The notes under the pieces: generated by a model
Database searches by the model: none
What the model was told of the DNA's origin: nothing
Seen by the model: only the letters and a program-made list of their open reading frames with translations
Translations under genes and position numbers: made by a program
Source: Caenorhabditis remanei
Lineage: Eukaryota > Nematoda > Chromadorea > Rhabditida > Rhabditidae
Direction of reading: 5' to 3'
DNA length: 64,000 bases
Assembly: GCF_010183535.1 (NCBI RefSeq)
Contig: NC_071331.1
Location: 21,886,001-21,950,000, forward strand
Shown: positions 24,776 to 46,851 of the stretch, piece after piece
Layout: each line of letters opens with the position of its first letter
How positions within the stretch are numbered: position 1 is the stretch's first letter

Positions 24776-25420
24776 AAAAATTGGCGCAAGATTTGAATTT
24801 AGTTTTTTTTAGGATTAGGCGGTTTTTTGTGGGGTTTATCAGGTTTTTTGAAGAAAAATTTGTGAAAATTCAAATTATTTTAATTCAAATAAAAATGCTG
24901 AATTTTGAAATAAAAATTGCCACGTAAATCAAAGAGAACAAGTGAAAACAAACAGTCTATGAAGGAATACTATGCGATTTTTCATGTTTTTGCTGCAGGA
25001 TTTCAAAATTTCCACAATTTTTTTCAATATTCAAAATCAGCAAGCTGGGAGCTTTCACAAAAGTATAATCATGCCTATATTTCGTTTGGAATCAAAGTTT
25101 TTGGGTCTCACCGCGAATTTTAATTGGATTACTGTAGTTTTCGCGACAGGACCCAGTTTTTCTGAATTTTTGTAATAATATTTGAATTTATCTTGTTCTC
25201 AGCTTTCAGAAAAGTACCCACAAGCCTATGTTCTGGTCAAATTGGGTCTTACCACGAAAACCGCCCGGGTTACTGTAGTTTTTGTGGCGAGATCCAATCT
25301 GAATGGAATATAGGCTTGTGGGTACTTTTCTGAAAGCTCTCAACGCGCTGAATCTAACTAGACTATAGAGAGACTCTGAAATTCAAAGGAAAACAAGAAA
25401 AAAAACAAAATCAAAATAAT

Positions 25421-26780: not shown

Positions 26781-29245
26781 GATTTCAGCGATTTTTCTGG
26801 AAAAAAGAGAGGATCAAGAGGAAAATGAGGGACAGGAGGCAGAAAACGACGAAAAAAACATGTAAAATTCATAAAAATCGGTCAAAATCCTACTAAAGTC
26901 ATGAAAAACTAGAAAAAATGATAAAAATTCACTAAAAACAGGGTGAAAATGGAAAATAGGAAAAACTCAATAACCAAGAGGGCAACAGATGAGTTATAAA
27001 TGAGAATACTGACTTCATAATCAATTAATTATATAATTATTCAATTATACTGTATTCTCACTTATCTTCCCACAGGCTACCATCTCTTGGGAAAAGTGGG
27101 CGGAGCTTAGGGTATTGGGAAACCTACTGGAATTGTCTGGAAACTTCTTCAGTTATTGATTTTTGTTTTAAGTTTTTAATGGAATTTCATAGATTCAGAG
27201 TGATGAGAGCTTTCAGAAAAGTATAATCATGTCTGTATTTTGAGAAATTTTAGTTTTAGGTAATTTTCACACTAAAAACTGATTTTTTACCGATTTTCCA
27301 GACAAGAATTATTTTTCACTAAAAATTCAATTAATTATCTATATTTAGGAACCAAAAACATCCCAAACAAGCAAGAATTCACAAAGTTATAGAATTTCGA
27401 AAATTTTCGAAAATCGAAAAATATGAAAATCATGCGAAAATCAATATTTTTGGGAGAGTGAATCGGTGAGCGAAGACTAACTAGATTAGATAACCAAATA
27501 ATATAATTATTTTATGGTCACACATTAAAATCTTCCCTCAAGCCACCATCTCGTGGGAAAAAGTGGGCGGGGCTTCCCCACCGTAAATGGCTATGGGAAG
27601 CAACCTGGAAATGTCGGAAAATGGTTCGGAAGTTTGGTTTTGGTAATTTTAATGTGAATTTCCAGATTCAGCTCGTTGAGAGCTTTCAGAAAAGTATAAT
27701 CATGTCTGTATTTTGAAATATTTAAATTTTAAGAAATTTTCACACTAAAAACTAAAAATACTCTTTATACCGGATTTTTTTTTTTTATGTCTGCAATTAT
27801 TTTTAAATGTAAATTCAATCAATTATCTATACTTTGAAATTAAAAACATCAGAAAGAAGCAAGAATTCATAAAGTTATAGAATTTCGAATAATTTCGAAA
27901 ATTGAAAAATTTTGGAATTAGGGGGTGTAACTCGGATAGTTTTGACATGTCGGATATGATATTTATATTTTTGGGTTCAGCGAATCGAGAGATTTCAGAA
28001 AAGTACCCACACACCTAGTTTTGGACTATTTCAAGTTTTTGAGGCTCATGTGCCTTTAAACGGGTTACTGTAGTTTTCGCGGCGGGATCCAGAGATCAGA
28101 AATCATGGCATGTGGGTACTTTTCTGAAAGCTCTCAATTCACTGATCTCAAAAATATGAATTTCATATTCGTCATGTCAAAACTAGCCGAGTTACACCTA
28201 TGATTCCAAAATTTTTGATTTTCGTAAATTTTCGAAATTCTTTAACTTTGTGAATTCTCGCTGGTTTTGGATGTTTTTAGGACCAAAATATAAACAATTA
28301 ATTGAATTTTTAGTAAAAAATAATTGCAGCCATAAAAAATCCAAAAACTCGGTGAAAATTAAGTTTTTAGTGGGAAAAACACCGAAAATTTGCAAAATTA
28401 AAATTTTTCAAAATGCAGACATGATTATACTTTTCTGAAAGCTCTCATCAAGCTGAATTTAGAAATTCACACTAAAATTCCTAAAACCAAACTTACGCAG
28501 ATTTTTCAGACAGTTTCCGGTAGTTTCCCATAGCCTATTACCTCCCGGGGAAGCCCCGCCCACTTTTTCCCACGAGATGGTGGCTTGAGGGAAGATTTTA
28601 ATGTTTGTCCATTTAATAATTATATTATCTAGTTAGTTAGTCTTCGCTCACAGACTCACTCTCCCAAAAATATAGATTTTCGCATGATTTTCCTATTTTT
28701 CGATTTTCGAAATTTTTCGAAATTCTATAACTTTGTGAATTCTTGCTTGTTTGAGATGTTATTAGGGCCAAACTGTAGATAATTGATTGAATTTTTAGTG
28801 AAAATTAATTTTTGTCTGGAAAATCGGTAAAAAATCAGTTTTTTGTGTGAAAATTACCTAAAATTAAATTTTCACAAAATACATTTATGATTATACTTTT
28901 CTGAAAGCTCTCATCACTTTGAATCTGGAAATTCCATTGAAAACTTAAAACAAAAATCAATAACTGTAGAAGTTTCCAGACAATTCCAGAAGGTTTCCCA
29001 ATAGCCTAAGCCCCGCCCACTTTTTCCCACGAGATGGTAGCCTGTGGGAAGATAAGTGAGAATACAGTATAATTGAATAATTATATAATTATTTGAATGG
29101 TTATGAAGTCATTCTTCTTATTTGTAACCCATCGGACGTCGGTTATAGATTTTTTCCTATTTCAACCTGTTTTTAGTGAATTTTTATCATTTTTTCTAGT
29201 TTTTCATGACTTTAGTAGGATTTTGACCGATTTTTATGAATTTTA

Positions 29246-29379
29246 TTATCGAAATAAAAAAGTTCCGACATTTTTTCCCCCTCGGTGTTTGCGGACTCAA
29301 GCCAAAATTATCAAATTTTGGCTTGAGTCCGCAAACACCGACGAGGAAAAAATGTCGGAACTTTTTTGTTGCGACAATA
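29246..29379. mobile_element. 134-bp hairpin MITE present in one palindrome arm only
   Basis: Arms of about 50 bp (aaaaaagttccgacattttt, tgtttgcggactcaagcc) are inverted around a short centre near 29310. The left arm of the large palindrome has the uninterrupted sequence at the corresponding place (26861). The insertion therefore came after the palindrome formed. It lies 82 bp upstream of the right-arm gene start. Confidence 0.8.
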
Positions 29380-29460
29380 CATGTTTTTTTCGTCGTTTTC
29401 TGCCTCCTATCCCTATTTTTCCCTTAATACTCTCTTTTTTCCAGAAAAATCGCTGAAATC

Positions 29461-31211
29461 ATGGCCACCGCCTACCCAGACGCCAAGGATTCGAAGATTG
29501 TCGATATGGACAAGAAGGCTGACGGAATTAATGGGAAATTGATGGATTCTGGAGACAAGACGAAGGTATGTCATGGGTTTTGTGGTTGTTAAGGCTGAAA
29601 TATTGGAACATTTGACGATTTTAGACGGGAAAAATCGGTTTGAAACTAGATTTTTGAGTTGAAAATGACATTTTTTGGACTGTTTTTTCTGTGAAAAGTT
29701 CATTTTATTGTTTGAAAACCTTACATGCTTATAGTTTTGAGATAATTTTACTAGATATGAAGTGAATACCCAGATTTTCATTTTATTTTCATTTAAAAAA
29801 AGAGCCAAAAATTGCTCAACTTTGACCCTATATTTTTGTATCAAAAACTGAGAAATTCAAAAAGTGTTTCATATCACTGGATAGCTCAAGAACAGAGCTT
29901 CATTTTTGTAGTTGACAACTTTTCAATAGCTCCGCCCACTTTTGAGGTAGATATACATCGTCAAAGTTAGGTTTGAAGGCGAGAGGGAGGGAAACCTCCT
30001 TTCGCACGCACTCTCGTCCCAAGTAGTAACTTAGCGGGAAACGTTATATCTCAAAAATGGGCGGAGCTATCAAAAAGTTGTCAACTATAAAAATGAAGCT
30101 CTATTCTTCAGCTATCCAGTGGTATTAAAATGTTTTTTGAATTTCTTTGTTTTTGATACAAAAATATAGGGTAAAAGTTGACCAGATTTTCAACTATTTT
30201 CAAAGTTCAAGCGGATTACTGTAATCCCAAACTATGTGCAAACACCGTGAAGTCAATGTATCAGATATTACGACAATTTGCAGAAAATTTGAATCTTTGG
30301 TGAAAATTTTAAGAAAAACGGGATTAAGAGTGAAAAATCCACAGAAAATTACATTTTTCTGCTGAAAGAATTCCAAATAGACATTTTTGTGTGAAAATAT
30401 AGTTTAAAATAGGAAATAACTGAGTAAACTGAGATTTCAAGTAAAAATTATACATTTTTAGATTCAAAATGTCATTTTTCAGTGCTAACAACTAGGAAAA
30501 CTGAATTCCCCTACGTTTTTACCCTTTGTTAACATTTTTCTCGAAAATTTCACTCAATTTTCGAATTTTCTGCAAATTGTCGAAATATCTGATACATTGG
30601 CTTCACGGTGTTTGCAAACAATCGGGACTACAGTAACCCAGATGCTGAAATTAAAGTTTTAGGGTGATTTGAGGACGGGAAACTCGTTTTTTGAAGTTTC
30701 AAATGTAAAAAATCTCATTTTCATCATTTTTCAGACTGTAATTGTCAAGAAATTTGAAGGAAGTCGTAAGAATTGGAGAAAAGGAGCAGTGAAGCTTGAG
30801 CGACATGTCTCTAAAGATGTATTTGAGGATTCAGATGACGAGAAGGATTCAGATGCACCGATTTCAGAAGAAAAGGATTCAGAAGAGGTCAGGAAGGCAC
30901 AGGAACATCTGAAAAACATGAATATTCAATTCATGGACGAAATATTTCGAGTGGCGGCCACATTCAAAAGTACAAAGGATCGAATTGAAATGATTAAAAA
31001 GTTAGGTGATGAGTATTATAAAGATGAGAAAATTAGACACGCCCCCCAACCACTCCGTTTCCCCGCCACCTCTTTTACTGGTGAAGTATTGAGTACACAA
31101 AATACTTATATCGATTTAATGCCTTCTTTGAATAACTCTGTTGATTTGAAGAAAAGAAAAGGTGACACTATCAATTGTAATGAGGCGAAAATGCCAAAAA
31201 CTGATGAATAA
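29461..31211 (+). CDS. Unidentified acidic/charged protein, right palindrome copy
   Basis: Exons 29461-29565 and 30735-31211 join in phase 0 to give 193 residues. The protein is clearly the same as that of 25421-26780. Differences include Gly-Asp-Lys-Thr-Lys at the end of exon 1, DAPISEE for GSKISEE, and deletion of a few residues before LMPSLNNSV. Both frames are intact despite these changes, suggesting that both copies are or recently were under selection. The exon 1 donor is GTATGT and the exon 2 acceptor TTTTTCAG. I do not recognise the family. Confidence 0.7.
29790..30190. repeat. Hairpin of the tttgtagttgacaactttt family
   Basis: The inverted arms contain tatatttttgtatcaaaaac, gaagctctattcttcagcta and agctccgcccacttttgag. 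They enclose a non-repetitive centre of about 60 bp. It lies in the intron of the right-arm gene. Related hairpins are at 47925-48195 and 59145-59365. Confidence 0.7.
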
Positions 31212-31284
31212 ATAATTTATATTTTGTATTTTCTCGTTTTTTTTTTTGATTTTCAGATTCTCTCACTAGTCTAGTTAGATTCAG

Positions 31285-32240
31285 CTCGTTCTCAGCTTTC
31301 AGAAAAGTACCCACAAGCCTAGATTCCGTTCAGTTTGGGTCTCGCCACGAAAACTACAGTAACCAGGGCGATTTTCGTGACGGGACCCAATTTTATCAGA
31401 ACATAGGCTTGTGGGTACATTTTTGAAAGCTGAGAACAAGCGGAATTTGAATATTATTAAAAATTCAGAAAAATGGGTCCTGTTGCGAAAACGACAGTAA
31501 TCCAATCAAAATTCGCGGTGAGACCTAAAAACTTCAAATCCAAACGAAATATAGGGTTGATTATACTTTTTTGAAAGTTCTCAACGAGCTGAATTCAAAA
31601 AATTAACTTCGGTGTAATTATTCATGAAAATCCAACAGATTACGGTAGTTTTCGTCAAAATTGGTTTTCGAAAAATTTCGAAATTCTATAACTTTCTTGG
31701 TTTTTGGTATTTCTTGTTGATTTTTAGCGGGAAATTGGGGTCTCGACACGATTTACGCGGGTTACTGTAGTTCGTGGTAGGATACCATTTTTCTGTATTT
31801 TTGTAATGATATTCAAATTCAGCTTGTTTTGAGCTTTCAAAAAGTACCCACAAGCCTATATTCTGATCGAATTGGGTCCCACCACGAAAACCGCCTGGGT
31901 TACTGTAGTTTTCGTGGTGGGACCCAAAATGCTCAGAATATAGGCTTGTGGGTACTTTTCTGAAAGCTGAGAACAAGCTAAATTCGATTCTTTTTTTCAA
32001 ATTCAGAGATTCTTTAAAAAATCACGGTTCTATCTAAAAAATACTAGTTTTTTAATGAAAATTCTGTTATTTTTGCATCTAAAAATTCAACTTTCTCTAC
32101 ATATTTTCAATATTTTAAGACTCTAGTCTAGTCATTAGTAATCCTCTTTCTTCCATGATTTCAAAATCAAGATGACTGACTCATTTTCTGCCTTCTGACC
32201 TTCTATTACATTTTGATCTACACGTCGTCCCCCCATGATA
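31285..32240. repeat. Spacer with two family-B foldbacks and a degenerate third
   Basis: Palindromes with tttcagaaaagtacccaca ends occur at about 31287-31440 and 31835-31975. A degenerate pair reading aagtataatc lies at 31500-31590. I see no gene in this spacer between the palindrome copy and the EF-hand gene. Confidence 0.65.
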
Positions 32241-34280: not shown

Positions 34281-35258
34281 AAATACGGTAGTATTAATCA
34301 TTCATAAAAAAAAACGCTGAAATTTTGAAGCCCGATACGGAAAAAAACCAAAAACACTTAAAAATGATAGTTTTTTATCCGGTTTTCAGTGTTTTTCACC
34401 AATTTAAAGCATAAAAACTGTAAAAATTTTGCTTTTTCCAGGATTCCTAAAAATGACGTCACCCCCAATTGTCTTCTGAAGGCCACGCCCCCTTGAAATC
34501 GTATTCCGGTCATCACAGTGAGACTCACAAGTCGGAATCAAAAAAGAAGAAGGATAAGAAGACGTTCGAGGAGGAGGATGATGTGGAGAAGCAAAAAAAG
34601 GATTCAGATGAGAATTCAGATGACGTGAAGGGGAAGAAATCGATGAAATCGGAGAAAAATGCGAAAAAAACGAAAAAATCGGCGAAAAAATCGAAAAAAT
34701 CGTCGTCGTCGTCGTCATCGGATTCTGATTCCTCAGATTCCTCAGATTCCTCAGATTCCTCCGACGACGAGAAGAAGAAGAAAAAGAAGAAGAAATCTAA
34801 GAAGTCTTCATCGTCATCGGATTCTTCTTCGGATTCAGATTCCTCGGATTCTGATGACGACAAGAAAAAGAAGAAATCCAAAAAATCCAAAAAATCCAAA
34901 AAAGAATTGGATTCTGATTCTGAAGAAGAAGAATCTATTCCAAAAAAGGCTCCAACGAAAAAAGTGGCTCCAGAATCCGAACGCCGACGTCATCGACTCA
35001 AAAAAACTGAAGAGCACGAGGAGGAGAAGGAGAAGGAGGAGCATCATGAGTCGAATGATGAGAATTTTGAATTCGACACCAATTCCAGAAGGCGTGACGA
35101 TTCAGATGATACTGACGATGAAATTCTCCTCGAGAAAGACCCGGAAATTGATGAAAATCAGGAAAAATCGGAAAAATCATCGAAAAAAAAGGAAAAATCT
35201 GGAAAAAATCACCATCACCACTGCTGCTGCGGAGCCACTGATGAGCACAAGCACACCC

Positions 35259-35683
35259 TAAACTGAGTTGTACTCAGGCAACAGGTGGTTCAGATTAATA
35301 TAAGTTTTATTGAGTAGATATATATGCAGAATAATAATATAAGGGGAGTAATGGAGACAGGAAAAGGGGCTAATAGGGTAATAAGGAACGGGGAAATGGG
35401 GACAGGAGGGTGGAAGGCGGCTGACGTTGACTCTGGTGATCTCCTCTTGAGACTGTGATTCCATGTTGGAGCAGCAAGCTTAAATACTCCTGAAGACCGG
35501 TCCATCCACTTTGCACTTCTCCGAATCGGCGCCAGAACTAGGTCGATTCCATTAATGGGCTTGTACTTTACGGCGCGGCGCCCGATTGAGACAGGATTGT
35601 TGCACTATTAGATACGGCGCACGGCTTCCAATTGTGGTGGTTCTTTGGTCGTGTTGTCTTGATGATCGGACATCGTCGCGATA
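35259..35683 (-). repeat. 3' LTR of the BEL/Pao element
   Basis: This 425-bp sequence matches 46330-46754 base for base in my reading. In element sense it begins TATCGCGACG and ends ACTCAGTTTA, without the common TG...CA ends. Its outer end creates a stop codon for the interrupted host exon (Thr-Leu-Asn-stop). Confidence 0.93.
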
Positions 35684-35985
35684 CTGCGGGCCACGGCAAG
35701 CTTGATAAGTGTAGTTTGATCTGAAGTCTTCATTTGAAACATTGTTGATATCCTCTTCCTCCGTTGGTCGATGCCATTTGCCATTTTCCAGTTGATGTGA
35801 AGAGAGGGAGGGGGAGGGAAAAGAAAGAGAAAGAGAAAATAAAAGTTCGAAAGAAAAAGCTGAAAATTCCAACATTCTTGTTGGTACAGGAAAGGGGATG
35901 AGGAAGGATAAAGTTTTACAGAAAGAATGCAATTTAAGAAATGACGGATTTCCGTCAGACTCCGGCGCCCACGTTTAGTGGTGGC
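35684..35985 (-). other. Element 3' region next to the LTR, no obvious polypurine tract
   Basis: In element sense this region carries a long pyrimidine tract (35800-35870, purine-rich GAGAGGGAGGGGG on the plus strand) and an open stretch running into the LTR. The purine run GGAGGAAGAGGA (about 35754-35765) lies some 70 bp before the LTR. The bases touching the LTR (GTGGCCCGCAG) are not a standard polypurine tract. In plus sense the region is upstream of the antisense gene's TATA box and could be its promoter. Confidence 0.5.
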
Positions 35986-35988
35986 GGG

Positions 35989-35996
35989 TATAAAAG
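35989..35996 (+). promoter_or_regulatory. TATA box of the antisense gene
   Basis: TATAAAAG stands in a GC-rich context (gtggcgggTATAAAAGatgg), 51 bp before the ATG at 36047. The element's own genes run the other way, so this box would serve only the antisense gene. Confidence 0.6.
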
Positions 35997-36046: not shown

Positions 36047-36486
36047 ATGTTCTATTATTTTTTGTCAGCAGCTATTCTTATTCCACTGGTTCTTGGTGAT
36101 ACTAACTCTGTGATACCGCGTTGGAAACTTCTCGGGGAATGTGGTGAATGTGAATTCTGCTTAGTTTTGGATGGGTTAGTTATCAAAAAAAATTTTCTGT
36201 GTTACTATTTTTTGTTTTTAGGTATGTTAGACCGTACTTTTGTGTTGCTGATGAAAAGGAGATTCCTTGTTATATTCGAGTCGAGTTCTTCCCTAATCTT
36301 TCTTCTGACTGTATTCGTGTGGAATCGACAACGGAATCTTCTACTTTGACTACTTCTGTTAGTAGTGTAACTGCTTATGTGGATAAATCTGGTGTAAGAA
36401 CATACGAAATGCTTTCTTTGGTTCTTTTGTTTTCTATTCTGTTTATCTTACTAGTGATTTTTTATATGATTTATTGTAAGATTTGA
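36047..36486 (+). CDS. Antisense intron-containing gene in the retroelement: type I membrane protein
   Basis: Exons 36047-36174 and 36222-36486 flank a 47-bp intron (GTTAGT...TTTTTAG) and join in phase to 130 residues. Residues 1-17 (MFYYFLSAAILIPLVLG) form a signal peptide. The ectodomain (18-105) has six cysteines at 32, 35, 38, 50, 59 and 73, a possible N-glycosylation site (NLSS, 68) and a Ser/Thr-rich stem. Residues 106-127 are a membrane span, followed by a tiny tail. A TATA box lies upstream and AATAAA at 36540. It runs opposite to all other genes of the element. I do not recognise the protein. It could be a captured host gene, a superinfection or entry modulator, or an accessory glycoprotein; no function can be assigned. 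Confidence 0.75.
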
Positions 36487-36539
36487 AAAATATCATACGG
36501 TGGTTTTTTTTTTTTTAAAATTTGTAAGAAATGTTAAGA

Positions 36540-36545
36540 AATAAA
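36540..36545 (+). terminator. Polyadenylation signal of the antisense gene
   Basis: AATAAA stands 54 bp after the stop of the antisense gene. It lies about 90 bp short of the end of the convergent third ORF, so the two transcripts would barely overlap. Confidence 0.55.
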
Positions 36546-36631: not shown

Positions 36632-37036
36632 TTATTGGTCGGATTCTTCTTCATCCATCTCGGTAATTGGAGTGGGTTCAGGTGCTTTGTCACAAATGGA
36701 AGCGTGATGAATTGCGAATTTCTTTCCGCAGTGGTAATTTTTGCAGAGCAGATGGGGTTTTTTGATCAGACGGCAATTGACTGGGTGATGAAATGCTTTG
36801 TTGAGGCATAGGATGCACAGTCGTTGATCAAGGCATTTCTGGAGTTTTTGATCTTGTGGGATAGTGGTGCATTCGTAGGTGAGGTGGTTTCTCTTGCATA
36901 GACGACATTTTGCAGGTGGCTTGTTGTCCTGTTGGATTGCTCTCATAGTTTGGTCCGTAATGCGTTGAGTATGGATTGTGATGGCGCGTTGTTTGGCCGC
37001 CTCGATGATTTCGGATGTCATTGAAGTAGAATTCAT
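36632..37036 (-). CDS. Accessory zinc-knuckle protein (third ORF of the retroelement)
   Basis: The ORF gives 134 residues, 3' of the envelope in element sense. It has three Cys/His clusters: CRLCKRNHLTYEC (C-x2-C-x4-H-x4-C), CILCLNKAFHHPVNC, and CKNYHCGKKFAIHHASIC. Their order and spacing follow the clusters in this element's own Gag (CKFCQRENHSTIEC, then CFNCINGGHRIQEC, then CRKCNTKHNSAIC), so it looks like a diverged second copy of the nucleocapsid region. The end is acidic (EMDEEESD). A TATATTCCAG acceptor lies 7 nt before the ATG, so it is probably made from a spliced mRNA. A nucleic-acid-binding accessory role is inferred. A gag-derived relic is less likely because the frame is intact. 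Confidence 0.78.
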   Translation of the reverse strand: MNSTSMTSEIIEAAKQRAITIHTQRITDQTMRAIQQDNKPPAKCRLCKRNHLTYECTTIPQDQKLQKCLDQRLCILCLNKAFHHPVNCRLIKKPHLLCKNYHCGKKFAIHHASICDKAPEPTPITEMDEEESDQ

Positions 37037-37042
37037 TTTGAT

Positions 37043-37052
37043 TCTGGAATAT
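37043..37052 (-). promoter_or_regulatory. 3' splice site before the third ORF
   Basis: On the minus strand TATATTCCAG precedes AATCAAAATG, placing an acceptor just before the third-ORF start. It would pair with the leader donor at 46272, giving a mRNA that skips gag, pol and env. Spliced-leader addition at the same site is the alternative. Confidence 0.6.
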
Positions 37053-37181
37053 ACATAAGGTTAATTTTGGTAATTGTTTGATAAGAGAGCGATAATTTCA
37101 CGATTTCAATATTGAAAAAAAAATGGAAAAGGAGAGTAATATTCTTGAGATCAAATGTAGTTTGCAGATGGGGGAATGAGG

Positions 37182-40100
37182 TTAACGCCTGAATCGGCGT
37201 CTTCTTGTCAAGAAGTTGGTGCATGCGGGTATGCAGCATAAGTATAGTATAGCTGAAGTGAATAGCATTCCTATGATTGCAAGAGTAATTGGTACAGCTC
37301 CTTTGATAATTGTGTTCAGGATTGCCCAGTAATCCGGAATATTCCATGGATGTATTTCTGAAATACTTTTTTCTGAGTGAAGTACTTGATTAAAATATTC
37401 ACTTAGTGATGTATGTGATACGTAGGTTAGAGTACCTTCTATTTTATAAGAGTTATTCTTGCTGCCACAAGATACAGTGCATACTCCTTTAGGATAAGCT
37501 TGGTAGAATTTTCTATGGATCTCATTTACTATTCCTTTTTTATCGCAAGTTAAAATATCTACGAATTCTTCATTATCACAGCTTAGTTTGGAATGAGTTG
37601 GCTCTTTTGACTTACAAGTAACGTTTTGGCTCGCGCCTTTTAGGCAGTTATAGCATCCTATGAAAGCGGTTGTTTTCTCAATACTACAATCAATTTTTGA
37701 TTCGATTATATTAGTATGATAACTCTGTTCCATTATCAACTGTAAATGAAAATTATTATGACGCATTCGAATGGTAGGGATGTTGTCGGGAGAAATTCCA
37801 AGATGATATCTTTCAGTTATTATCGGGAGGTTATGATTTCGGTCGTCTAGTATTTTAAATAAATCGGGAACTTTACATAAGCAAATTGCTTCAGAATCTC
37901 CTAAATTACAATTACAGGTTTCTCGGTAATTACAATCACCTGATTCAGTACATTCTAACGGAAAAATTTCATTAGTTATAGATGCTAGAGCAATTTTCTC
38001 TTCGTTTTGGATGAATTTTTTACCCAAAATGCTTAATCCGGTTTCACCGGTTACTTCTAAAAGTCGAAATTTAAGGTCAATTTCATGATCTTTTTGTTTC
38101 CCGTATCGAAAATTGATTTGGTAATCTCCTCCTTCTCTAATTTGGAAAATTTGTTCAATGACTTGGTTATCAAAAGTTAGAGATGCTGTAAAATGAATAG
38201 CATTCGACCATGTGTCGCATGAATAGATTTGAAATTTATCATCTGATGTGGGTACAGCATAAGTTCTATAGAAGAGGCAAGCCTCTGTAGGCAATAAGCA
38301 TCTACACCATAATCCACCACAACTGCTGGAGCAGTATGTGTGTCCTGGGTACTTATTTCCTTCAGTGAATTCACTCAGTTTTGAATTGGGTCCTACGTCT
38401 AAACATTTTCGATCAACACATTCTCCCATGCCGTGGCATCTTTTAGAGCTGTCGGCGTGAACTGTAACATTTTTAGTAAACATGATGGGACCTTTTTGGC
38501 ATTTACGAAAATTGTGGTCAACAGTCAGTTTGAATTTCAGTAAAACGTTGTTTGTGGAGACTACTTGAAGACAGATAGTCTTTGTCTCGGGAGTAAAAAA
38601 TATATCTTCCGTTCTCTCGACGCGACAAACACCTTGTTCGTTACACGTGCTTTCCTCGTGTGAGATTGGATAGGTTGAGTCACACACGTCCGTGGCGACG
38701 GAAGAGATTAAAAGAGATAGCGTGGCTATAGCTAAGAAAGTTGTGGGGGGAGACGGTGAGCGAGATGACGTCTTTCGAATTCTTAAAACATCTCTTCCTT
38801 CTTCTTCAACAGTGCTTACTTCAAAAAGTAGTGTTCTGGGGTTGGCAGGAGTGGTACTATTCGAAAAATTTACAGTTCTTTTGGTACTTGGAGTGGATCT
38901 AGAGGGTAGGTATTTTTTATGTCGAATTCTATCTCTCCAATTTCTTACAGTTGCTATTCGTTTTGGTACTTGTGATTTTCTTAGTGGTACCATTTCTATT
39001 TCCTCTAACTCATCAGTTTCTTCTTGTGGTTTCTTACAACATACAAATTGGTGGAGTTTTTCACAAAAATTACACCAGCAAAACATGAGTTTAAATAATT
39101 TCCATAATTTTGTTCGTTGCCAGCAAAGAGTTATTAGTTTCATCAAAATGGCAATGAGAGAAATGACTATTGCGATAGTTGCTTTTGGGTGACACTGTGA
39201 GTTAAATAAGAACCTTGTACAGAATATGCAGTCAAAATGTTTGTTAGCTTTCCAACAGTAGTCTGTTGGAGGGCATACCTTAGATAAGATTACAAAACTT
39301 TGTCCTATCGACTTTTTCCAAGTTATTCTATGTTTATGGACAGTGTATTCTGGTGGGATTATGACTTCGGTTACTTTTTTCTTAGTGACTACTTGGTGAT
39401 CACACCAATTTTCAGTACATACAGAGTTAGGTTGACTAGTCATATTTTCTTCATCTATTAAATTTACGCCATTGGCAGTGCATTCTAATCGTGACTTACT
39501 ATCATGTATCTCGTGTCGGTTCAGAATGTGCATGTTATTGGACGTAGTCGTTTCAATCAGTGGCATTTGTTCTGTTGAAGGTTTTGTTGCTTGTATCGAA
39601 CGTCGATAATCTTCTTTGGGCATAAACCCTTCGGTTGCTGAGCGGACATTAGGTACTGTTGTTCTAAAAGTGGGATTTATAGAGACTGATGTCGGAATGG
39701 ATGTGAAAGAAGTTGGCAAAATTTTGACTGTGGTAGTAGTAGTGCTTGATGTTGTACTACTTCTAGTCGTGGGAATACTAGTCGTGAAAATGCTAGGTTT
39801 TGTTGTTGGAATAGTGGTGGTTGATGGAATTGCTGTGGAGCTTATAATTACCTGGGTGGTTGTTGAGGAAGTCGTTCTTATTGTTGACTGAGTGGTGGTA
39901 GTTGATGGAGTAGTTTGGGTAGTTGTACTTTGGGTTGTAGGTTGTTTTGTGGTTTTCCTTGGAGTGGTTGTCGGTAAACTCGTGGATGTAGTAGTTTTCG
40001 GAGCGGTTGTACTTGAGGGGATGGGAATGGTTATCGTAGTAAAGTTCATAATTTTTTCTTCTTCTAGGAGAATTGATTCAGTAGCTGTTTTGAGTTTGTT

Positions 40101-42119
40101 AGGTGACGCAGTCACCGAAGATGTTGCTAATATGCACATAAGCATGATGACAGTCCAAATATTCCAGAGACTGAAATTTGGTTTACGATTGAGATTTTTT
40201 CTGAAATTATCGTTTTGAGTTTCTAACACTGGTCGAAGCATTTTCTTTTCAGACATTCTGTGTTTTTGGAGTCCATGAGAAAGGTTTCTAGCATGATTTA
40301 CTTTTACTTTAAGTTCGTCTACAGAGGTATCTTCTGAAGATTGAGGTCTCAACTCTAGTGGGATTACTAATCTTAGTGGTCTTGTTATTTCTTGGATTTT
40401 GAACGGTTTATAAGGGAGAGTTCCATCTCTCACTTTTCTTTTTTGTGTGGTGCGGACACGGACAGATCTAATTTCTCCGTCACGACCTTTCATCAATTCT
40501 GTGATAATTCCCATTTTCCATTGCTTACGGGGAACATCTTCGTCTTTAAGAAGCACTACTTCTCCTAAGATTGGTTTCACTAAATTAGAATGGACACGAT
40601 TTGGTTGTGAAAGCGACTGGAAGGTTTTCAGTTGTTTGATGTAATCTCTATGGAAAATGTCCCAAAAACGTTTCACATTCTTTTTGACTTCTCTAAAATT
40701 GGACGTGTATTCAAAGTATTCGTCTCTGAGACCATTTTCTTCAAAGATAGAAAAGTATAAACCTGGAGTAATGATGTCTATTGGTCTTAAACATTGAAAA
40801 TCTTCACTACCATCATCAATATAAGTAAGAGGACGTTTGTTTACTAAACATTCACATTCTGCCATTATTGTTTCTAAATCTTTATAGTTATGTAAACTAT
40901 CTCCAAGACAATGTTTCAATGACTTCTTGACAACTCCAACAAGTCTTTCGTAAAATCCTCCTTGCCATGGAGCTAATGCAGTATTGAAGTACCACTTGAC
41001 ACCTTTTTTGGTCATTTCTTTTTCTAAAATATCAGATCTCAATTTTTCAATTTTTTCAAAAGCTAGTTCTGCTAGAAAACTGTCTTCTTTTTCCGAAAAT
41101 CTATCTAATATCTCTGCTGTCAGTTTGAACGTTGCGGCGTTATCAGATGTAATTGAATCGGGATAGCCTCGTCTACTCATAAAACGAGAGAGTGCGAGAA
41201 GGAATTCGTCGGTAGATAAATTTCGTACATGTTCAAGGTGAATTAGCCTTGTGGTGGTACACGTGAAAAGGGCGATGTGAGACTTTTCTACGTCATTTGA
41301 ATTTCTGATATAGGTTTTGAAGGGACCCATGAAATCTACGCCTACATGTTGAAATGGTCTGGACTCATTTGTCCTTCTTTCTGGTAGATCTCCTGGTGGG
41401 GCTTCTCGAAAAGCGTGGTTATTAGATTTTCTACATGTAGAACATCTTTTTAGTTCACTTTTAACTGCTACTCTCCAACTTTCACCAGAAAACTTGTCAA
41501 GAATAATGCCGAGTGTAGTTAATGGTCCTATGTGAAGATTATCTCTATGAACTTTTTGAATAATTAGTCTTCCTAGTTGAGATTTCGCTTTTACTATGGG
41601 AGTTTTTGGTCTTCCGGTTATTCTATTATGCTGGTATACAATTTGGTCAGAAGGTGAATTAACATTATCTTTGTCCAAAAATTGGTTTTCTTTTGGATTT
41701 TCTTCTATTTTATACTTTCTTTGATTTTCTCTAATCAAAAGTTTCATGGCTAGGTCTAATTCTTCTAATTTTAGCATTTTGTTCAACGTTTTAGGATAAT
41801 GTTTGAGTTCCGGGAAATTTCTTTCTAGTTTAATTTTTAAATTTTTGTTTAGTTTATCATAAATTTTGACTTTCAAGAATCTCAATAAAAATGCGGTTAT
41901 TCTTTTGGATTTTTCTAGATTGTTAATTTTTTCTAGAGGAATGATCTCATTTTCAGAATCTGATGGTTTAACTTGAACTGGCATTGCTACTACATTAGTT
42001 TCTATTTCGTCACAATGTTTCAAAACTAAAAGTTTGTTTCCCTCTTTTTTACTGGGGTTCTCGCAATGATTTTCATTTTGTAGCCAAAGTGGACCGTGAA
42101 ACCAATTAGTTTCTCTCAA
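37182..42119 (-). CDS. Integrase plus Gn/Gc-like envelope polyprotein (retroelement ORF2)
   Basis: The frame gives 1645 residues and is already open upstream of 42119, reaching back to the RNase H frame change near 42284. Integrase: a CSTC pair near 226-229, then catalytic Asp (VGVDFMGPF, 262), Asp (SDNAATF, 326) and Glu (GGFYERLVG, 390). The envelope follows without a stop. A first signal or membrane segment lies at about 650-670 and a Thr/Ser/Pro mucin-like stretch at about 690-825. Then come a Cys-rich Gn-like part, a membrane span (about 990-1015), a second signal-like segment (about 1125-1147), a Cys-rich Gc-like part containing CGGLWCRC, and a C-terminal span with a basic tail. The Gc part resembles class II fusion glycoproteins of phleboviruses, as known for nematode BEL envelopes. 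An internal Met at 40256 could start the envelope. Confidence 0.88.
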   Translation of the reverse strand: MRETNWFHGPLWLQNENHCENPSKKEGNKLLVLKHCDEIETNVVAMPVQVKPSDSENEIIPLEKINNLEKSKRITAFLLRFLKVKIYDKLNKNLKIKLERNFPELKHYPKTLNKMLKLEELDLAMKLLIRENQRKYKIEENPKENQFLDKDNVNSPSDQIVYQHNRITGRPKTPIVKAKSQLGRLIIQKVHRDNLHIGPLTTLGIILDKFSGESWRVAVKSELKRCSTCRKSNNHAFREAPPGDLPERRTNESRPFQHVGVDFMGPFKTYIRNSNDVEKSHIALFTCTTTRLIHLEHVRNLSTDEFLLALSRFMSRRGYPDSITSDNAATFKLTAEILDRFSEKEDSFLAELAFEKIEKLRSDILEKEMTKKGVKWYFNTALAPWQGGFYERLVGVVKKSLKHCLGDSLHNYKDLETIMAECECLVNKRPLTYIDDGSEDFQCLRPIDIITPGLYFSIFEENGLRDEYFEYTSNFREVKKNVKRFWDIFHRDYIKQLKTFQSLSQPNRVHSNLVKPILGEVVLLKDEDVPRKQWKMGIITELMKGRDGEIRSVRVRTTQKRKVRDGTLPYKPFKIQEITRPLRLVIPLELRPQSSEDTSVDELKVKVNHARNLSHGLQKHRMSEKKMLRPVLETQNDNFRKNLNRKPNFSLWNIWTVIMLMCILATSSVTASPNKLKTATESILLEEEKIMNFTTITIPIPSSTTAPKTTTSTSLPTTTPRKTTKQPTTQSTTTQTTPSTTTTQSTIRTTSSTTTQVIISSTAIPSTTTIPTTKPSIFTTSIPTTRSSTTSSTTTTTVKILPTSFTSIPTSVSINPTFRTTVPNVRSATEGFMPKEDYRRSIQATKPSTEQMPLIETTTSNNMHILNRHEIHDSKSRLECTANGVNLIDEENMTSQPNSVCTENWCDHQVVTKKKVTEVIIPPEYTVHKHRITWKKSIGQSFVILSKVCPPTDYCWKANKHFDCIFCTRFLFNSQCHPKATIAIVISLIAILMKLITLCWQRTKLWKLFKLMFCWCNFCEKLHQFVCCKKPQEETDELEEIEMVPLRKSQVPKRIATVRNWRDRIRHKKYLPSRSTPSTKRTVNFSNSTTPANPRTLLFEVSTVEEEGRDVLRIRKTSSRSPSPPTTFLAIATLSLLISSVATDVCDSTYPISHEESTCNEQGVCRVERTEDIFFTPETKTICLQVVSTNNVLLKFKLTVDHNFRKCQKGPIMFTKNVTVHADSSKRCHGMGECVDRKCLDVGPNSKLSEFTEGNKYPGHTYCSSSCGGLWCRCLLPTEACLFYRTYAVPTSDDKFQIYSCDTWSNAIHFTASLTFDNQVIEQIFQIREGGDYQINFRYGKQKDHEIDLKFRLLEVTGETGLSILGKKFIQNEEKIALASITNEIFPLECTESGDCNYRETCNCNLGDSEAICLCKVPDLFKILDDRNHNLPIITERYHLGISPDNIPTIRMRHNNFHLQLIMEQSYHTNIIESKIDCSIEKTTAFIGCYNCLKGASQNVTCKSKEPTHSKLSCDNEEFVDILTCDKKGIVNEIHRKFYQAYPKGVCTVSCGSKNNSYKIEGTLTYVSHTSLSEYFNQVLHSEKSISEIHPWNIPDYWAILNTIIKGAVPITLAIIGMLFTSAILYLCCIPACTNFLTRRRRFRR

Positions 42120-42259
42120 TTCTCTTTCGGAATCGCAACCACGTGTTATGTGGTCGGCGGGATTCTGGTCGGTCGGAACATGCGAAAGTGAAATTTCTAT
42201 CGGATCGTTTCGTTTTTTGATCTCTTCTAAAGTGTTCCAAATTTCTTTACATCTATTTT

Positions 42260-45200
42260 CTACAAATTGGGGAAGCTTTTCTCCTTTTTTGGTAGAATGA
42301 TTTTTATTTGGGCTAGAGCTATGGTAGAGTCAGAAAAGAGTTCAATTTTTTCGAGATTTAATTTCATTTGCTGGATGGAATAGTTCAAAATTCTTACACC
42401 AATTAGAATTCCTAGTAGTTCTAGTCTTGGGATGGTCAAAGTTTTTGATTTTGAAGCGATTCGTTGTTTTGCAATTAATAAATGGGTATCGAACTGACCT
42501 GGTTCATCTTCTTTTTCGATCTTCAGATATATGCAGGCTCCATATGTATGCTCTGAGGCGTCAGTGAACACTGCCATTTGTACGGGTTTTTCTTTGTCCA
42601 GCTTCGGGATGGGACGACTGAATTTCAAAGATGAATTACAAATTTTATCACAATATTTCATTATTCGAACTACAGTTTCTTCACTCACATAATCTTGCCA
42701 TTTTAGCTCATGATCCGAAATACTTCTCAAAATTAATTTTCCTTCTAAGTACAAAGGAGCAAAATAAAGTAATGGGTCAAAAAAGGTAGTAATTTTACCT
42801 ACGGCCTGTTTTTTCTTCATTTTCGGAATTTTGTTATTCTGTAGTTCTAATCTAATTTTCTTGACTTCGAGTATATCTTTCTCCAAGTCGTAAAGATATC
42901 CTAGCATTTTTACATTGTCCAAATTTTTAGCTTTGTCGTCTTCTTTCAAAAAATTGACTGGGTGATTAACTGTAAACTCTCTGATGTTCATTCCAATGCT
43001 ACTGAAAAATTCTTTCAAAAGCTCATACATTTTTGGTAATTCGCTAACTTCGTCGGTCAGGATGAACACATTATCGACATAGCACATTTGTTCGATTGCT
43101 TCGACAAGCTTTTTTGGAGCGTTAGACTGTCTAACAGCATATAATATGGACATTGACAAAAGAAATGGTGAGCAGTTCACACCGAAAGGAAGATTTTTAA
43201 ATCTCATCAATCTTAGATTATCATAAGTAGCGTCACGTTCTGGATTTTTTAACCAGATGAATCTCAATGCATCAATATCGTCTTTATTGACTTCTATTGC
43301 ATGGAAGGCTTTTTCTATATCACAAGTCATCAAGAATTTGCCTATTCTTAATCTGAGTAATATGCCTTGGAGATCGGGCACTAGCGATGGACCTTGATGA
43401 AGCGCATTATTTAGACTAAGTTCTCCTCGTTTCTTACTGGAAGCGTCAAAAACTGTTCGAACTTTTGTGGTATTACTACTATTGTTGAAAACTAATCCAT
43501 ATGGAATAAAAAATCCAATGTCCGAATCGTTATCTATTTCTTCAATAATACCCATTTTTTCCATAGTTTCGAAGTTTGCTACCAGTGGATCCCAAGCGGG
43601 TGTGTTTTTTGAGGATCTTACTAGTTGTCTAATTCTACAGACTGCCACATCTTTGTTGTTAGCTAGTTTCTCTCTTTGCCCGTCTTTCCAAATTAGAGGG
43701 GCTATAATTCTATGGGTGTTTTCGTTGACTTTTACTTTTTTCTCAAATTCGGCGATGATGTTTTCATTTGTGGGATCATGGACTACCTCAGTAATTCCAA
43801 TATTACTAATTTCAAAAAATTCTTCTAAACAGGTTTCCGAAAATGAGTCGTTTTTCTTTTCTTTTAATCTTGCAATTAATGCGTGAGTGCTAGTAGTTTT
43901 TGTATTTCCTTTACCACAAACTACGGTTCCTAGTTGAGTAGGAATAATGAATTTTCCGGATGGTAATTTTTTCTTTCCATCTTGGATAATATCCCAAAAT
44001 ATGTCGGCTCCTAGGAGAGCGACTGCTTTTTCCTGTTTAGTTATGTTAACGGTTTCTTGGTTCGTTGTCTCTAAATATGTCTTATCTTCGAAAGAAAGAT
44101 CGACAGGGTCAAATAAGTCAGTTATATCTGGTACAGTTAATGCTTCTACAGTGATAATTGAGTTTTCTTTTTGAGGGGCTATAATTGTCAATTCTACTTT
44201 ATTCGAAATGATTGTAGTTGGGTCTCTTCCAAAAACGGATAAATCAATTTCTACGTTTCTTTCCAAAATTTTCATATTTGCTTTTTCTGCAAAGCTAGAT
44301 AGCACAAAAGATTGGTCTGCTCCTGAATCTAGGAGGACTGGTATTATTTCGACTTCGTCATTTACTAATACTGGTGCATTTGCAACCATGAGCGAGGTAT
44401 TATTTGAATTAACTTTATAACTTTTTGCTTGGTTAAAAGTTTTTGGGGGAGTGGACTGACCTTGGTTTCTGAATTGTCCTTGAGTGTTTTGTGGGGCATT
44501 GGTTTGGTTTCTTTGACCATTCTGGTTGTTTTGATATCGTGGCTGATATCCATTTCCGTGGAAGTTCTGATTTCTCTGGTAGTTGGACGGCGCTCGGTAG
44601 CCTTGTCCTTGGTGATTTCCTTTGTTCAGGTTTTGTGGATGATTGGGTGTTCTGAAGTTATTTGTTGAGAAATTTTCTTTTTTGAAAGTCGGGACGTTTT
44701 TCCTTGCAATTTGTAAATTTTTTGGGCAAATAGCTGAGTTGTGTTTTGTGTTGCATTTTCTGCATGCGGAACTTTTGCATTCTTGTATTCTGTGACCCCC
44801 GTTAATACAGTTGAAGCATAGGTTATTCGTTTTGATGAATTCTCTCCTATCTTCTAACGTTGGGACAGTTCTACATTCTATGGTAGAGTGATTTTCTCTT
44901 TGACAAAATTTGCATTTTTGTTGCGAGTGTGATTTTTTCACTGCGAAGATTGTTCTATCTTCTTTTTCGGGGACAGTTTTTGATCTTTGCGCTGCTTCTT
45001 CAATGGTGATGATAACATCTAGCGCATCTAATATCTCAGTGGTTTTCTTTGGTTTTGATTTCAAGATCTCAATCAAAATTGGTGTGGGGATTTTACTTTT
45101 GACTACGGATTGGTAGTTTAGGGTGTCTATATTTCCATGTTTTTTCAAACTATTAATAATAGCAAAAAGTTCATTATGGAGGATTCTTAAACTTTTGGGG

Positions 45201-46057
45201 TGTTCCCTTGCCATTGGGATGTTTGACAGTCTATTCCACAGATGGTCATATTGTTTTTCTTGTGATCCATACATAGCCAAAAGTCTATCCATGGCATCTT
45301 TAAACTGTGTTCCATCTGTGTCATATGGTCTTATGAGGTCAGCTGGGTCTCCTGATAAATGGTTCCTTAAGATGTTATGTTTCATAACATCATCATATTC
45401 GTCATTATCTATTACGGTAGGCTTGAAAATCATATAAAAGGCAGACCATTGTGAGATGTTTCCATCAAAGTTAGGTAGTTTAACGTGTCTAAAGCTTAGT
45501 GCGCTGCTTGAAGTTTCGGTGTTAAAACTTCTCACCTTCTGATGGTTGTTGGACGAAGTTTTGTTGAAATCCGTGTTCAGGTCTATCAGGTTTGGTTGCT
45601 TTTTCACGGCAATTTCAAAGTTGATTTTCCCGATTGGGGTAACGTTTTCTTCTCCTGCAACGACATTAGCGGCTATATGTCTGACTTTCATTTTATTTTC
45701 TAGTTCAGTTACCTTCTTTCTGATGTCTGCGTTCTTTGAATGGGCTTGCTCGATAGTTGTTTTTGCAGTTTCAGCCAATAAATTTCCTACTGGAGTCTCG
45801 TGGAGCTTTGATAATACGGCGTTGTATTGCTCTGTATATTTTTTGTGAAGTTTCTGAAATTTTTCCAATTCAGAAGTCAAAAATACTCCATATTCTGCAA
45901 TGTATACGTTTATTGGGGTAGTTTCGGCCAGTTTCGCAGCTGGGTTAAGTCTCAGTGTGGTGTTGATGGAAGTTGTGAGTTCTTCCTCATACGTTTTTTG
46001 AATGTCGGAGATGGTTTCTCCCCATTCTTGGATGTTTTCATGAGTAATGTAACTCAT
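42260..46057 (-). CDS. Gag-protease-reverse transcriptase-RNase H polyprotein (ORF1)
   Basis: The ORF gives 1265 residues. Gag spans about 1-560, with three zinc-binding clusters at 382-445 and a Gly/Asn/Gln-rich basic linker. The protease has LLDSGADQSF (about 575-584). RT motifs follow: VFDASSK (869), CDIEKAFH (912) and YVDN (993-996). RNase H begins at FTDAS (about 1164) with ELLG (1213) and FSDST (1242). The frame ends 15 residues into the next segment at a stop at 42260, while RNase H continues in the -1 frame of ORF2. The start is the first Met after the leader. The fourth residue of the RT box is Asn instead of the usual Asp. Confidence 0.92.
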   Translation of the reverse strand: MSYITHENIQEWGETISDIQKTYEEELTTSINTTLRLNPAAKLAETTPINVYIAEYGVFLTSELEKFQKLHKKYTEQYNAVLSKLHETPVGNLLAETAKTTIEQAHSKNADIRKKVTELENKMKVRHIAANVVAGEENVTPIGKINFEIAVKKQPNLIDLNTDFNKTSSNNHQKVRSFNTETSSSALSFRHVKLPNFDGNISQWSAFYMIFKPTVIDNDEYDDVMKHNILRNHLSGDPADLIRPYDTDGTQFKDAMDRLLAMYGSQEKQYDHLWNRLSNIPMAREHPKSLRILHNELFAIINSLKKHGNIDTLNYQSVVKSKIPTPILIEILKSKPKKTTEILDALDVIITIEEAAQRSKTVPEKEDRTIFAVKKSHSQQKCKFCQRENHSTIECRTVPTLEDRREFIKTNNLCFNCINGGHRIQECKSSACRKCNTKHNSAICPKNLQIARKNVPTFKKENFSTNNFRTPNHPQNLNKGNHQGQGYRAPSNYQRNQNFHGNGYQPRYQNNQNGQRNQTNAPQNTQGQFRNQGQSTPPKTFNQAKSYKVNSNNTSLMVANAPVLVNDEVEIIPVLLDSGADQSFVLSSFAEKANMKILERNVEIDLSVFGRDPTTIISNKVELTIIAPQKENSIITVEALTVPDITDLFDPVDLSFEDKTYLETTNQETVNITKQEKAVALLGADIFWDIIQDGKKKLPSGKFIIPTQLGTVVCGKGNTKTTSTHALIARLKEKKNDSFSETCLEEFFEISNIGITEVVHDPTNENIIAEFEKKVKVNENTHRIIAPLIWKDGQREKLANNKDVAVCRIRQLVRSSKNTPAWDPLVANFETMEKMGIIEEIDNDSDIGFFIPYGLVFNNSSNTTKVRTVFDASSKKRGELSLNNALHQGPSLVPDLQGILLRLRIGKFLMTCDIEKAFHAIEVNKDDIDALRFIWLKNPERDATYDNLRLMRFKNLPFGVNCSPFLLSMSILYAVRQSNAPKKLVEAIEQMCYVDNVFILTDEVSELPKMYELLKEFFSSIGMNIREFTVNHPVNFLKEDDKAKNLDNVKMLGYLYDLEKDILEVKKIRLELQNNKIPKMKKKQAVGKITTFFDPLLYFAPLYLEGKLILRSISDHELKWQDYVSEETVVRIMKYCDKICNSSLKFSRPIPKLDKEKPVQMAVFTDASEHTYGACIYLKIEKEDEPGQFDTHLLIAKQRIASKSKTLTIPRLELLGILIGVRILNYSIQQMKLNLEKIELFSDSTIALAQIKIILPKKEKSFPNL
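42284..42290 (-). promoter_or_regulatory. Slippery heptamer A AAA AAG at the ORF1/ORF2 frame change
   Basis: In the ORF1 reading phase the bases fall as A-AAA-AAG, the canonical -1 slippery pattern, 24 bases before the ORF1 stop. A -1 step here leads into the frame of ORF2. The alternative is a one-base loss from an A-run, by mutation or in assembly. The position inside RNase H argues for the latter. Confidence 0.45.
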
Positions 46058-46316
46058 GTTGAGAAATGGTTTTGTTCGATTTGTTGTGCAAACGAAAGTG
46101 AACGGAAGTGAAAGGAGTACGATGAAGGTGTGTTTACCTTTCGTAACTTTTAATTAGAGACTTTGAGACAATATGGATGGCGGATTTTTCTTCGCCGAAG
46201 CCGATTCAGTACTGGAGTACTGTTAACGTGGCAAGCCGAATTGGTTGGTACTTGGCAGATATGCTAACTTACCTTGAAAGATCCGTTGAATCCTTGGTGG
46301 CGGTGGGTGATCAGAC
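46058..46316 (-). other. Retroelement leader with a consensus 5' splice donor
   Basis: The leader from the primer site to the gag ATG contains TTTCAAG-GTAAGT, with the G of GT at 46272. This is the best donor in the element and lies about 45 bases from the primer site. A second, weaker GTAAAC lies near 46137. A donor here is the retroviral arrangement for making spliced subgenomic mRNAs. Confidence 0.6.
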
Positions 46317-46329
46317 GGTCGATGCACCA
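46317..46329 (-). promoter_or_regulatory. Primer binding site of the BEL/Pao element
   Basis: Directly after the 5' LTR in element sense the sequence is TGGTGCATCGACC. It is complementary to a tRNA 3' end reading GATGCACCA. The acceptor matches glycine tRNA (GCC) over the last nine or ten bases, but the tRNA identity is only a suggestion. The site fixes the element's orientation. Confidence 0.75.
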
Positions 46330-46754
46330 TAAACTGAGTTGTACTCAGGCAACAGGTGGTTCAGATTAATATAAGTTTTATTGAGTAGATATATATGCAG
46401 AATAATAATATAAGGGGAGTAATGGAGACAGGAAAAGGGGCTAATAGGGTAATAAGGAACGGGGAAATGGGGACAGGAGGGTGGAAGGCGGCTGACGTTG
46501 ACTCTGGTGATCTCCTCTTGAGACTGTGATTCCATGTTGGAGCAGCAAGCTTAAATACTCCTGAAGACCGGTCCATCCACTTTGCACTTCTCCGAATCGG
46601 CGCCAGAACTAGGTCGATTCCATTAATGGGCTTGTACTTTACGGCGCGGCGCCCGATTGAGACAGGATTGTTGCACTATTAGATACGGCGCACGGCTTCC
46701 AATTGTGGTGGTTCTTTGGTCGTGTTGTCTTGATGATCGGACATCGTCGCGATA
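46330..46754 (-). repeat. 5' LTR of the BEL/Pao element
   Basis: It matches the LTR at 35259-35683 over all 425 bp as far as I can compare by eye. In element sense it would contain the promoter and the start of the genomic RNA. It is followed leftwards by the primer binding site. Confidence 0.93.
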
Positions 46755-46851
46755 CACCCATGAGGAGGAATTTTTGAAAAAGACCGATAAGATTGTGAAT
46801 AAACATCATGACTGTGTCAAGTGCCAGGTTAAATGTCCGATTTGTACTTGA
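46755..46851 (+). pseudogene. EF-hand / Lys-Ser-Asp-rich gene, 3' part after the retroelement
   Basis: After the target duplication (CACCC) the host frame resumes with His-Glu-Glu-Glu-Phe and runs to TGA at 46849-46851. The tail ends in CVKCQVKCPIC, a four-cysteine cluster that with HHHHCCCG on the other side of the insertion suggests a metal-binding C-terminus. The reading phase matches that of 35258, proving a single exon before insertion. Confidence 0.85.

Follow-up and report, generated by a model that had tools for sequence, protein, structure and literature searches.

A probable spliced antisense gene, predicted to encode a small membrane protein, in BEL/Pao retrovirus-like elements of Caenorhabditis remanei

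Among retroviral antisense genes, HBZ encodes a bZIP regulator, and the ASP gene of HIV-1 overlaps env on the opposite strand. Where ASP and env overlap, the selection acting on the two strands is difficult to tell apart, and part of the slow acceptance of antisense genes may be ascribed to this overlap. That acceptance was slow for antisense retroviral genes is described in the available part of a published account (PMC8622228), in which the HBZ-type genes of the human and simian T-lymphotropic viruses are retroviral antisense genes with spliced antisense transcripts. The antisense promoter of HTLV lies inside the 3′ LTR (PMC7264820), and ASP, a retroviral antisense membrane protein located at the plasma membrane, is described as expressed from the 3′ LTR (PMC3182985). 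In plants, antisense open reading frames between pol and the 3′ LTR (aORF-3R) are carried by Grande (gene23), RIRE2, Retand and PvRetro13; they occupy the same place and orientation as the gene reported here, are conserved across copies and species, have a promoter upstream in the case of gene23, and encode products without clear similarity to other proteins, according to the available text of the source (PMC7264820).

Among nematode elements, Cer13 of C. elegans and the Atlas virus of hookworm are BEL/Pao elements with a phlebovirus-type envelope, placed in the Belpaoviridae, and the main text of the Atlas virus paper (PMC9094657) uses none of the terms “antisense”, “opposite strand” and “accessory”. 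An extra protein of a Caenorhabditis LTR element, CERV of C. elegans Cer1, differs in being a nuclear RNA-export protein of a Gypsy-type element, and “antisense” is absent from the main text of that paper (PMC10309623). For the Penelope elements of bdelloid rotifers an antisense template was proposed to explain intron retention in dispersed genes; these differ in not being LTR elements and in that host genes are copied in trans, with no conserved element gene, in the portion of the source available (PMC3846280). The word “antisense” is also absent from the main text of a BEL/Pao survey (PMC3118150), and its occurrences in the accessible text of PMC5408684 and PMC12992720 are in small-RNA or piRNA passages. 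Among the titles and abstract openings of an incompletely covered literature, no prior description of a spliced antisense gene in an LTR element of a nematode was found.

The window analysed here, a 64-kb stretch of C. remanei DNA (contig NC_071331.1, designated C4 in the 130.5-Mb genome), contains an 11.5-kb element on the minus strand whose features are collected in Table 1. It is a BEL/Pao element with a phlebovirus-type envelope, Belpaoviridae-like, in which an RNase H region, a reverse transcriptase (RT), LTRs and a target-site duplication were all found. ORF1 and ORF2 overlap in different reading frames. In ORF2 the phlebovirus G2-like family PF07245 was matched over positions 1–324 of 324 (E 4e-76) and PF18701 was also above its cut-off, with rve (PF00665, 24.4 bits against a cut-off of 32.6 bits) and H2C2 below theirs. 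The Pfam scan of ORF3 returned no family above cut-off. In several copies the relatives of ORF3 match the knuckle region of gag as well, and ORF3 may have arisen by duplication of a gag domain that then became an accessory gene; a stretch resembling ORF3 was also observed 3′ of the other envelope type (L074, 1946–2173).

No polypurine tract adjoins position 35684. A longer LTR, suspected from this absence, was dropped as an explanation, since L018, a lone LTR elsewhere in the genome with no element interior next to it, matches these same 426 nt at 95%. When the flanks of the element were joined minus one ACCC repeat an uninterrupted reading frame was obtained, so the element appears to have been inserted into host coding sequence. 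This host-like sequence is Ser/Lys/Asp-rich (34457–35258 and 46760–46840, plus strand) and interrupted by the young insertion; its empty site reads on to a Cys-containing C-terminus, and the Pfam scan of the interrupted frame gave no family. Elsewhere in the window a large nested inverted repeat (25023–31606) has arms of up to 603 nt with about 90% complementarity and further repeat families inside.

Table 1. Features of the BEL/Pao element and of its antisense gene (positions in the 64-kb window).
Feature	Position	Strand	Remark
Target-site duplication ACCC, left copy	35255..35258	.	ACCC flanks both element ends
3′ LTR, BEL/Pao element, 426 nt	35259..35684	-	426/426 identity with 5′ LTR
GGCGCCCACG block 5′ of antisense TATA box	35964..35973	+	8/12 copies match pattern
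TATA box TATAAAA, antisense gene	35989..35995	+	in 12/12 aligned copies
Exon 1: predicted hydrophobic leader and CxxCxxC; ATG at 36047	36047..36174	+	
Intron, 47 nt, GT..AG	36175..36221	+	splits Gly codon GG/G
Exon 2 with stop: three conserved Cys, Ser/Thr-rich stalk, predicted membrane span, 4-residue tail	36222..36486	+	
AATAAA, possible poly(A) signal	36540..36545	+	
ORF3, Cys/His zinc-knuckle-like accessory frame	36632..37060	-	relatives adjoin antisense gene in other copies
ORF2: integrase-type domains, Thr-rich segment, phlebovirus-G2-type envelope	37182..42329	-	Pfam
ORF1: gag, protease-like, RT, Pao RNase H region	42260..46153	-	PF05380, PF03564, PF00078 over cut-off
Primer binding site TGGTGCATCGACCG	46316..46329	-	complementary to tRNA-Gly 3′ end
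5′ LTR	46330..46755	-	426/426 identity with 3′ LTR
Target-site duplication ACCC, right copy	46756..46759	.	ACCC flanks both element ends

The antisense gene sits opposite gag-pol-env, between ORF3 and the 3′ LTR, and overlaps no sense gene. The original prediction had placed in a gag-pol-env LTR element a gene on the opposite strand with a TATA box, a signal-peptide exon, a 47-nt intron, a membrane-span exon and AATAAA, and a product of 130 residues. The sense genes do lie on the minus strand between identical LTRs, and each part of the gene, its stop included, was found at the predicted place. The donor reads GG/GTTAGT at 36174/36175 and the acceptor TTTTTAG/G at 36221/36222; exon 1 comprises 42 codons and GG, exon 2 comprises G, 87 codons and the stop ending at 36486, and the residue count is thus correct (42, one split Gly codon and 87).

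Fifteen related loci, including the window, were found in the genome, and the gene is antisense in the 14 of them where orientation could be read; for L004 it was taken from its homology with the window, which runs collinearly through the LTR junction, and for L007 from the primer-tRNA end. A query with the exon 2 protein led to 13 places, 12 of which are family members, and L072, L044 and the degenerate L034 were added from other queries. One candidate relative, L014, was rejected because it matches the stalk only and has no exon 1 before it. Weak matches, among them the exon-1 matches C38:21633 and C4:21095994, were kept out of the count of 15, as were many short matches to about residues 90–129 of L012, which resemble a dispersed repeat located where that frame ends. 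In the core of exon 2 the residues P, F, C, P, C, I, R and C were invariant in all 10 aligned sequences; this alignment excludes the broken copies L004 and L007, and the later finds L072 and L044 differ at some of these positions. The damaged copies are L004 (one stop and a truncation), L007 (truncated), L010 (acceptor not AG) and L034 (degenerate).

The intron splits the same Gly codon in all 14 copies with both exons read, 12 of them placed by alignment (11 GT-AG) and L072 and L044 by eye, and is GT-AG in 13; that of L010 ends in AA. Its length ranges from 43 to 87 nt with remainders of 0, 1 and 2 modulo 3, so a common protein register exists only after splicing. The intron of copy L007, 50 nt long, is skipped by a C. 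remanei gene model, GCK72_005549 (P0005), whose first exon is a different one. Among database proteins, two of C. nigoni (P0006 and P0008) are relatives and are continuous across the intron position, a continuity that an intron-free gene would also yield. P0008 has a leader and a membrane span, and P0006 ends before any span. Profile searches of protein databases returned relatives from C. remanei and C. nigoni and unnamed ENA proteins alone, a protein search with exon 2 of the window by itself gave no match, and none of 18 pattern matches in IMG/VR viral contigs encodes a relative.

The sequence TATAAAA lies at −39 to −63 from the ATG in all 12 aligned copies, and L072 and L044 have TATATAAA as a TATA-type box. 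Upstream of it a GGCGCC(C/T)ACG block was found at −62 to −84 from the ATG in 8 of the 12, with related letters in the other four. In the window the conserved TATA box is 305 nt inside the element, outside the LTR. The end signal has fared less well than the TATA box: AATAAA is present at 36540 in the window as predicted, but AATAAA or ATTAAA within 400 nt past the first in-frame stop was found in just 5 of 12 copies, the count in L004 and L007 starting at the early stop.

Hydropathy analysis identified a leader in 12 of 12 copies and a membrane span in all 10 with an uncut exon 2, in agreement with the signal-peptide and membrane-span exons first proposed. Exon 1 has three cysteines after the leader, and the exon 2 ectodomain has no fewer than three. 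The product would therefore be, by hydropathy, a small type I membrane protein with one span, a short tail and a predicted ectodomain of some 50 residues that contains six conserved cysteines in most copies. The stalk contains 26–45% Ser/Thr in 7 of 10 copies and 8–13% in L011–L013, so a mucin-like stalk is not general. In a predicted model of P0008 of low confidence (mean pLDDT 68, pTM 0.34) a helix covers residues 111–154. Eight proteins or exon pieces scanned against Pfam gave no match over cut-off and no bZIP domain, the PDB sequence search no convincing match, and searches of PDB and viral folds with the low-confidence model no match with E below 3; a sub-cut-off resemblance between L012 and a super-infection exclusion family of phages (E 0.14) was set aside. 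These searches pointed to no known family, fold or host donor for the putative protein.

The context of the gene could be read at 14 of the 15 loci, all but L044. It is antisense to envelope and/or ORF3 in 12 of 15: to both in the window, L005, L006, L008, L010, L011, L015 and L072 (8/15), and to ORF3 in L009, L012, L013 and L034 (4/15), where neither the stretch read nor the nearby census entries gave an envelope match. Most copies of the family have an antisense coding frame that lies past the last sense gene and before the 3′ LTR. In L004 and L007 (2/15) little is present besides the gene and the LTR sequences on either side of it. Direct repeats, in tandem or overlapping, were observed near the antisense gene in two copies (L030, 6898–8001, and L025, 1971–3845).

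The LTRs of the window, of L021 (which holds L005) and of L023 (which holds L007) are identical over 426, 482 and 509 nt, respectively, which marks all three as recently reverse-transcribed. Each of them has kept the intron, and it follows that the intron passes through retrotransposition, as argued in the original prediction for an intron in antisense orientation. L021 (876–7736, C4 near 1128000; LTRs 482/482) retains the gag start, envelope, ORF3 and antisense gene, with no match for protease, RT, RNase H or integrase, and may be a derivative moved in trans or deleted after insertion. In L023 (C2 near 9245300), a short element, a complete tRNA-Gly (5795–5868; anticodon GCC by ARAGORN, 3′ CCA) lies beside L007, directly between the cut antisense gene and the LTR, and its 3′ end is the one to which the primer site of the window is complementary. 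It looks like a primer that was copied into DNA at reverse transcription before a template switch into the antisense gene.

Capture of a host gene that is now kept because it benefits the host and not the element (a restriction factor at the cell surface would be one example) would fit the promoter, intron and leader, which resemble those of a host gene. It would also fit the persistence of an open gene, L012, in the decayed element of stretch L028, in which no frame of 150 aa or more was found, and the two loci that consist of little beyond LTR, gene and LTR. We nevertheless regard it as improbable, because none of the 15 loci was shown to lie outside an element (the context of L044 and a few weak matches being left out) and recent insertions carry the gene, which fits inheritance at the level of the element.

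The association with the envelope was assessed in a census of PF07245, with at least 57 matches among 66 candidates scored. Sorted on bit score alone, the near-complete envelopes comprise 22 at 284–334, 7 at 254–262 and one partial envelope at 245. The antisense gene adjoins five of the seven at 254–262 bits (window, L005, L006, L008 and L011); the remaining family members adjoin fragmentary envelope matches or none. Among the matches listed, a comparison of coordinates placed no antisense match within 30 kb of any of the 22 higher-scoring envelopes, several of which are on short contigs and one of which (L074) was read directly; C6:20576905 (L073) and L074, the latter an element with the higher-scoring type, gave no match at the inclusion threshold. 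The envelope of C114 was counted neither way, as ORF3 is present and the contig ends at the expected site of the gene, and a single exon-1 match of 8.6 bits, on the envelope side of the stretch read, was taken as chance. Intact copies without the gene had been named beforehand as evidence against it. The elements with frames of 2974 and 2966 aa (L006 and L008) carry it, whereas at C5:3740844, an element with a 2952-aa frame and a related envelope, no exon match was found in the 3.4 kb beyond the envelope domain, and some copies of the gene are broken. In L015 the antisense gene is about 4 kb from the envelope, beyond the span read at C5:3740844.

An antisense protein that is an obligate partner of the envelope, as a chaperone or a second glycoprotein of the particle, would explain why, among near-complete envelopes, the gene was found only beside the lower-scoring PF07245 type. 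Divergence of the gene also rises with that of the envelope and is larger: between the window and L005 the envelope domain is 80% identical and the antisense cores 56% and 66%. Such a partnership nevertheless seems to us of low probability. Stretches L025, L028 and L029 (8 kb each) contain the gene and ORF3 with no envelope match, nor any in the nearby census, and the keeping of the gene in three ORF3 copies of this kind weakens a purely envelope-linked role. A gene without envelope, together with the related envelope element that shows no gene within the span read, disfavours a strict partner; an antisense layout would, moreover, separate the expression of the two partners. A role for the provirus-bearing cell, or a benefit to the host, may be compatible with the pattern of copies.

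Over 12 copies the antisense frame contains one stop, against 85 and 139 in the other two frames of the same strand and 66, 66 and 95 in those of the sense strand. Coding on the sense strand was rejected on these counts. Values of dN/dS, obtained by simple counting on pairs of copies, were 0.07 for L005/L006 (p 5e-6), 0.20 for L012/L013 (p 1e-6) and 0.32 for L003/L004 (p 3e-4), the one stop codon of the broken L004 being left in. In two further pairs with dS near saturation they were 0.23 (L003/L005) and 0.16 (L011/L012); L003/L008 and L005/L008 were too saturated to give a ratio, and L007/L008 differ at one site. Of 105 differences in the three informative close pairs, 56 fall at third codon positions (p 2e-5); for the five close pairs together the figure is 65 of 129 (p 5e-5). 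Selection acts on the codons of the antisense protein across divergent copies. The expectation that other copies would conserve frame, intron and TATA box with dN/dS below 1 was borne out in most copies and pairs, the exceptions being the broken copies and L008/L009, with a value of 0.62 that is not significant (p 0.23).

The differences are spread unevenly in L005/L006, L008/L009 and L012/L013, for which reason recombination between copies may have contributed; the pattern suggests exchange between element lineages. In L012/L013 and L008/L009 a near-identical core is accompanied by a diverged remainder of exon 2, and in L005/L006 exon 1 is identical and exon 2 differs.

If the functional product were the antisense transcript itself, pairing with sense RNA and feeding small-RNA silencing or dampening sense expression, the frame would be incidental. 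The gene is antisense by position, and roles of antisense RNA are discussed for plant LTR elements (PMC7264820) and HIV (PMC8622228) in the available text of both sources. This reading is very hard to reconcile, however, with codon-level selection, an open frame and a protein register kept across introns of unequal length; the gene being outside gag-pol-env, its transcript would pair with only the 3′ part of the sense RNA. We hold it to be highly improbable. Although a one-intron frame of 130 residues can be drawn in many AT-rich sequences, a chance open frame with chance splice-like sites is refuted by conservation across copies, codon-level selection and the C. nigoni relatives, and its probability is negligible. 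A nested element was likewise rejected, on the copy context and on the alignment, stop and promoter comparisons.

We conclude that this is very probably a genuine protein-coding gene of a C. remanei group of BEL/Pao elements. It would be transcribed against gag-pol-env by Pol II from the internal TATA box, and the antisense transcript would be spliced once. The genomic RNA would carry the intron in reverse, invisible to the spliceosome, and for this reason the intron would persist. The product is predicted to enter the secretory pathway and to be displayed at the surface, an accessory protein that could be made in provirus-bearing cells independently of the LTR. It might act in the secretory pathway or at the cell surface, for example by limiting re-entry or managing the envelope; a role on the envelope/receptor axis is a guess, which we put at rather less than even. 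Still more speculative, and on balance unlikely, is the broader proposal that nematode elements carry a class of intron-proof accessory genes, complete genes of host type with promoters of their own, set antisense so that the intron outlasts reverse transcription, and that a surface protein of silent proviruses decides re-entry by related elements.

The gene shows a way for an LTR element to keep an intron-bearing gene, and points to an overlooked way for retrovirus-like elements to carry an extra one. It overlaps no sense gene, its codons are under selection across divergent copies, and its conserved intron would allow a clear test with strand-specific RNA; antisense coding by an animal retroelement thereby becomes directly testable in worms grown in the laboratory.

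In plan, the gene appears to encode an element-borne accessory surface protein comparable to the antisense genes of HTLV and HIV and of plant LTR elements; it seems to follow the general plan of these systems, with kinship to none of them shown. The plant aORF-3R differ in that the gene23 product is nuclear and that of PvRetro13 has an SMC domain, in the accessible part of the source (PMC7264820), whereas the gene described here belongs to an animal BEL/Pao element with an envelope, is spliced and has a product with a predicted leader and membrane span, a distinction drawn by description only. In contrast to HBZ, the promoter-like box is inside the element and the product is predicted to be membrane-bound. 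In contrast to ASP, likewise compared by description only, the worm gene has no overlap with a sense gene and has a leader and an intron. Its distinctive features are thus an animal BEL/Pao element with an envelope, a conserved spliced structure, an internal TATA box, a predicted leader/membrane product and freedom from sense overlap.
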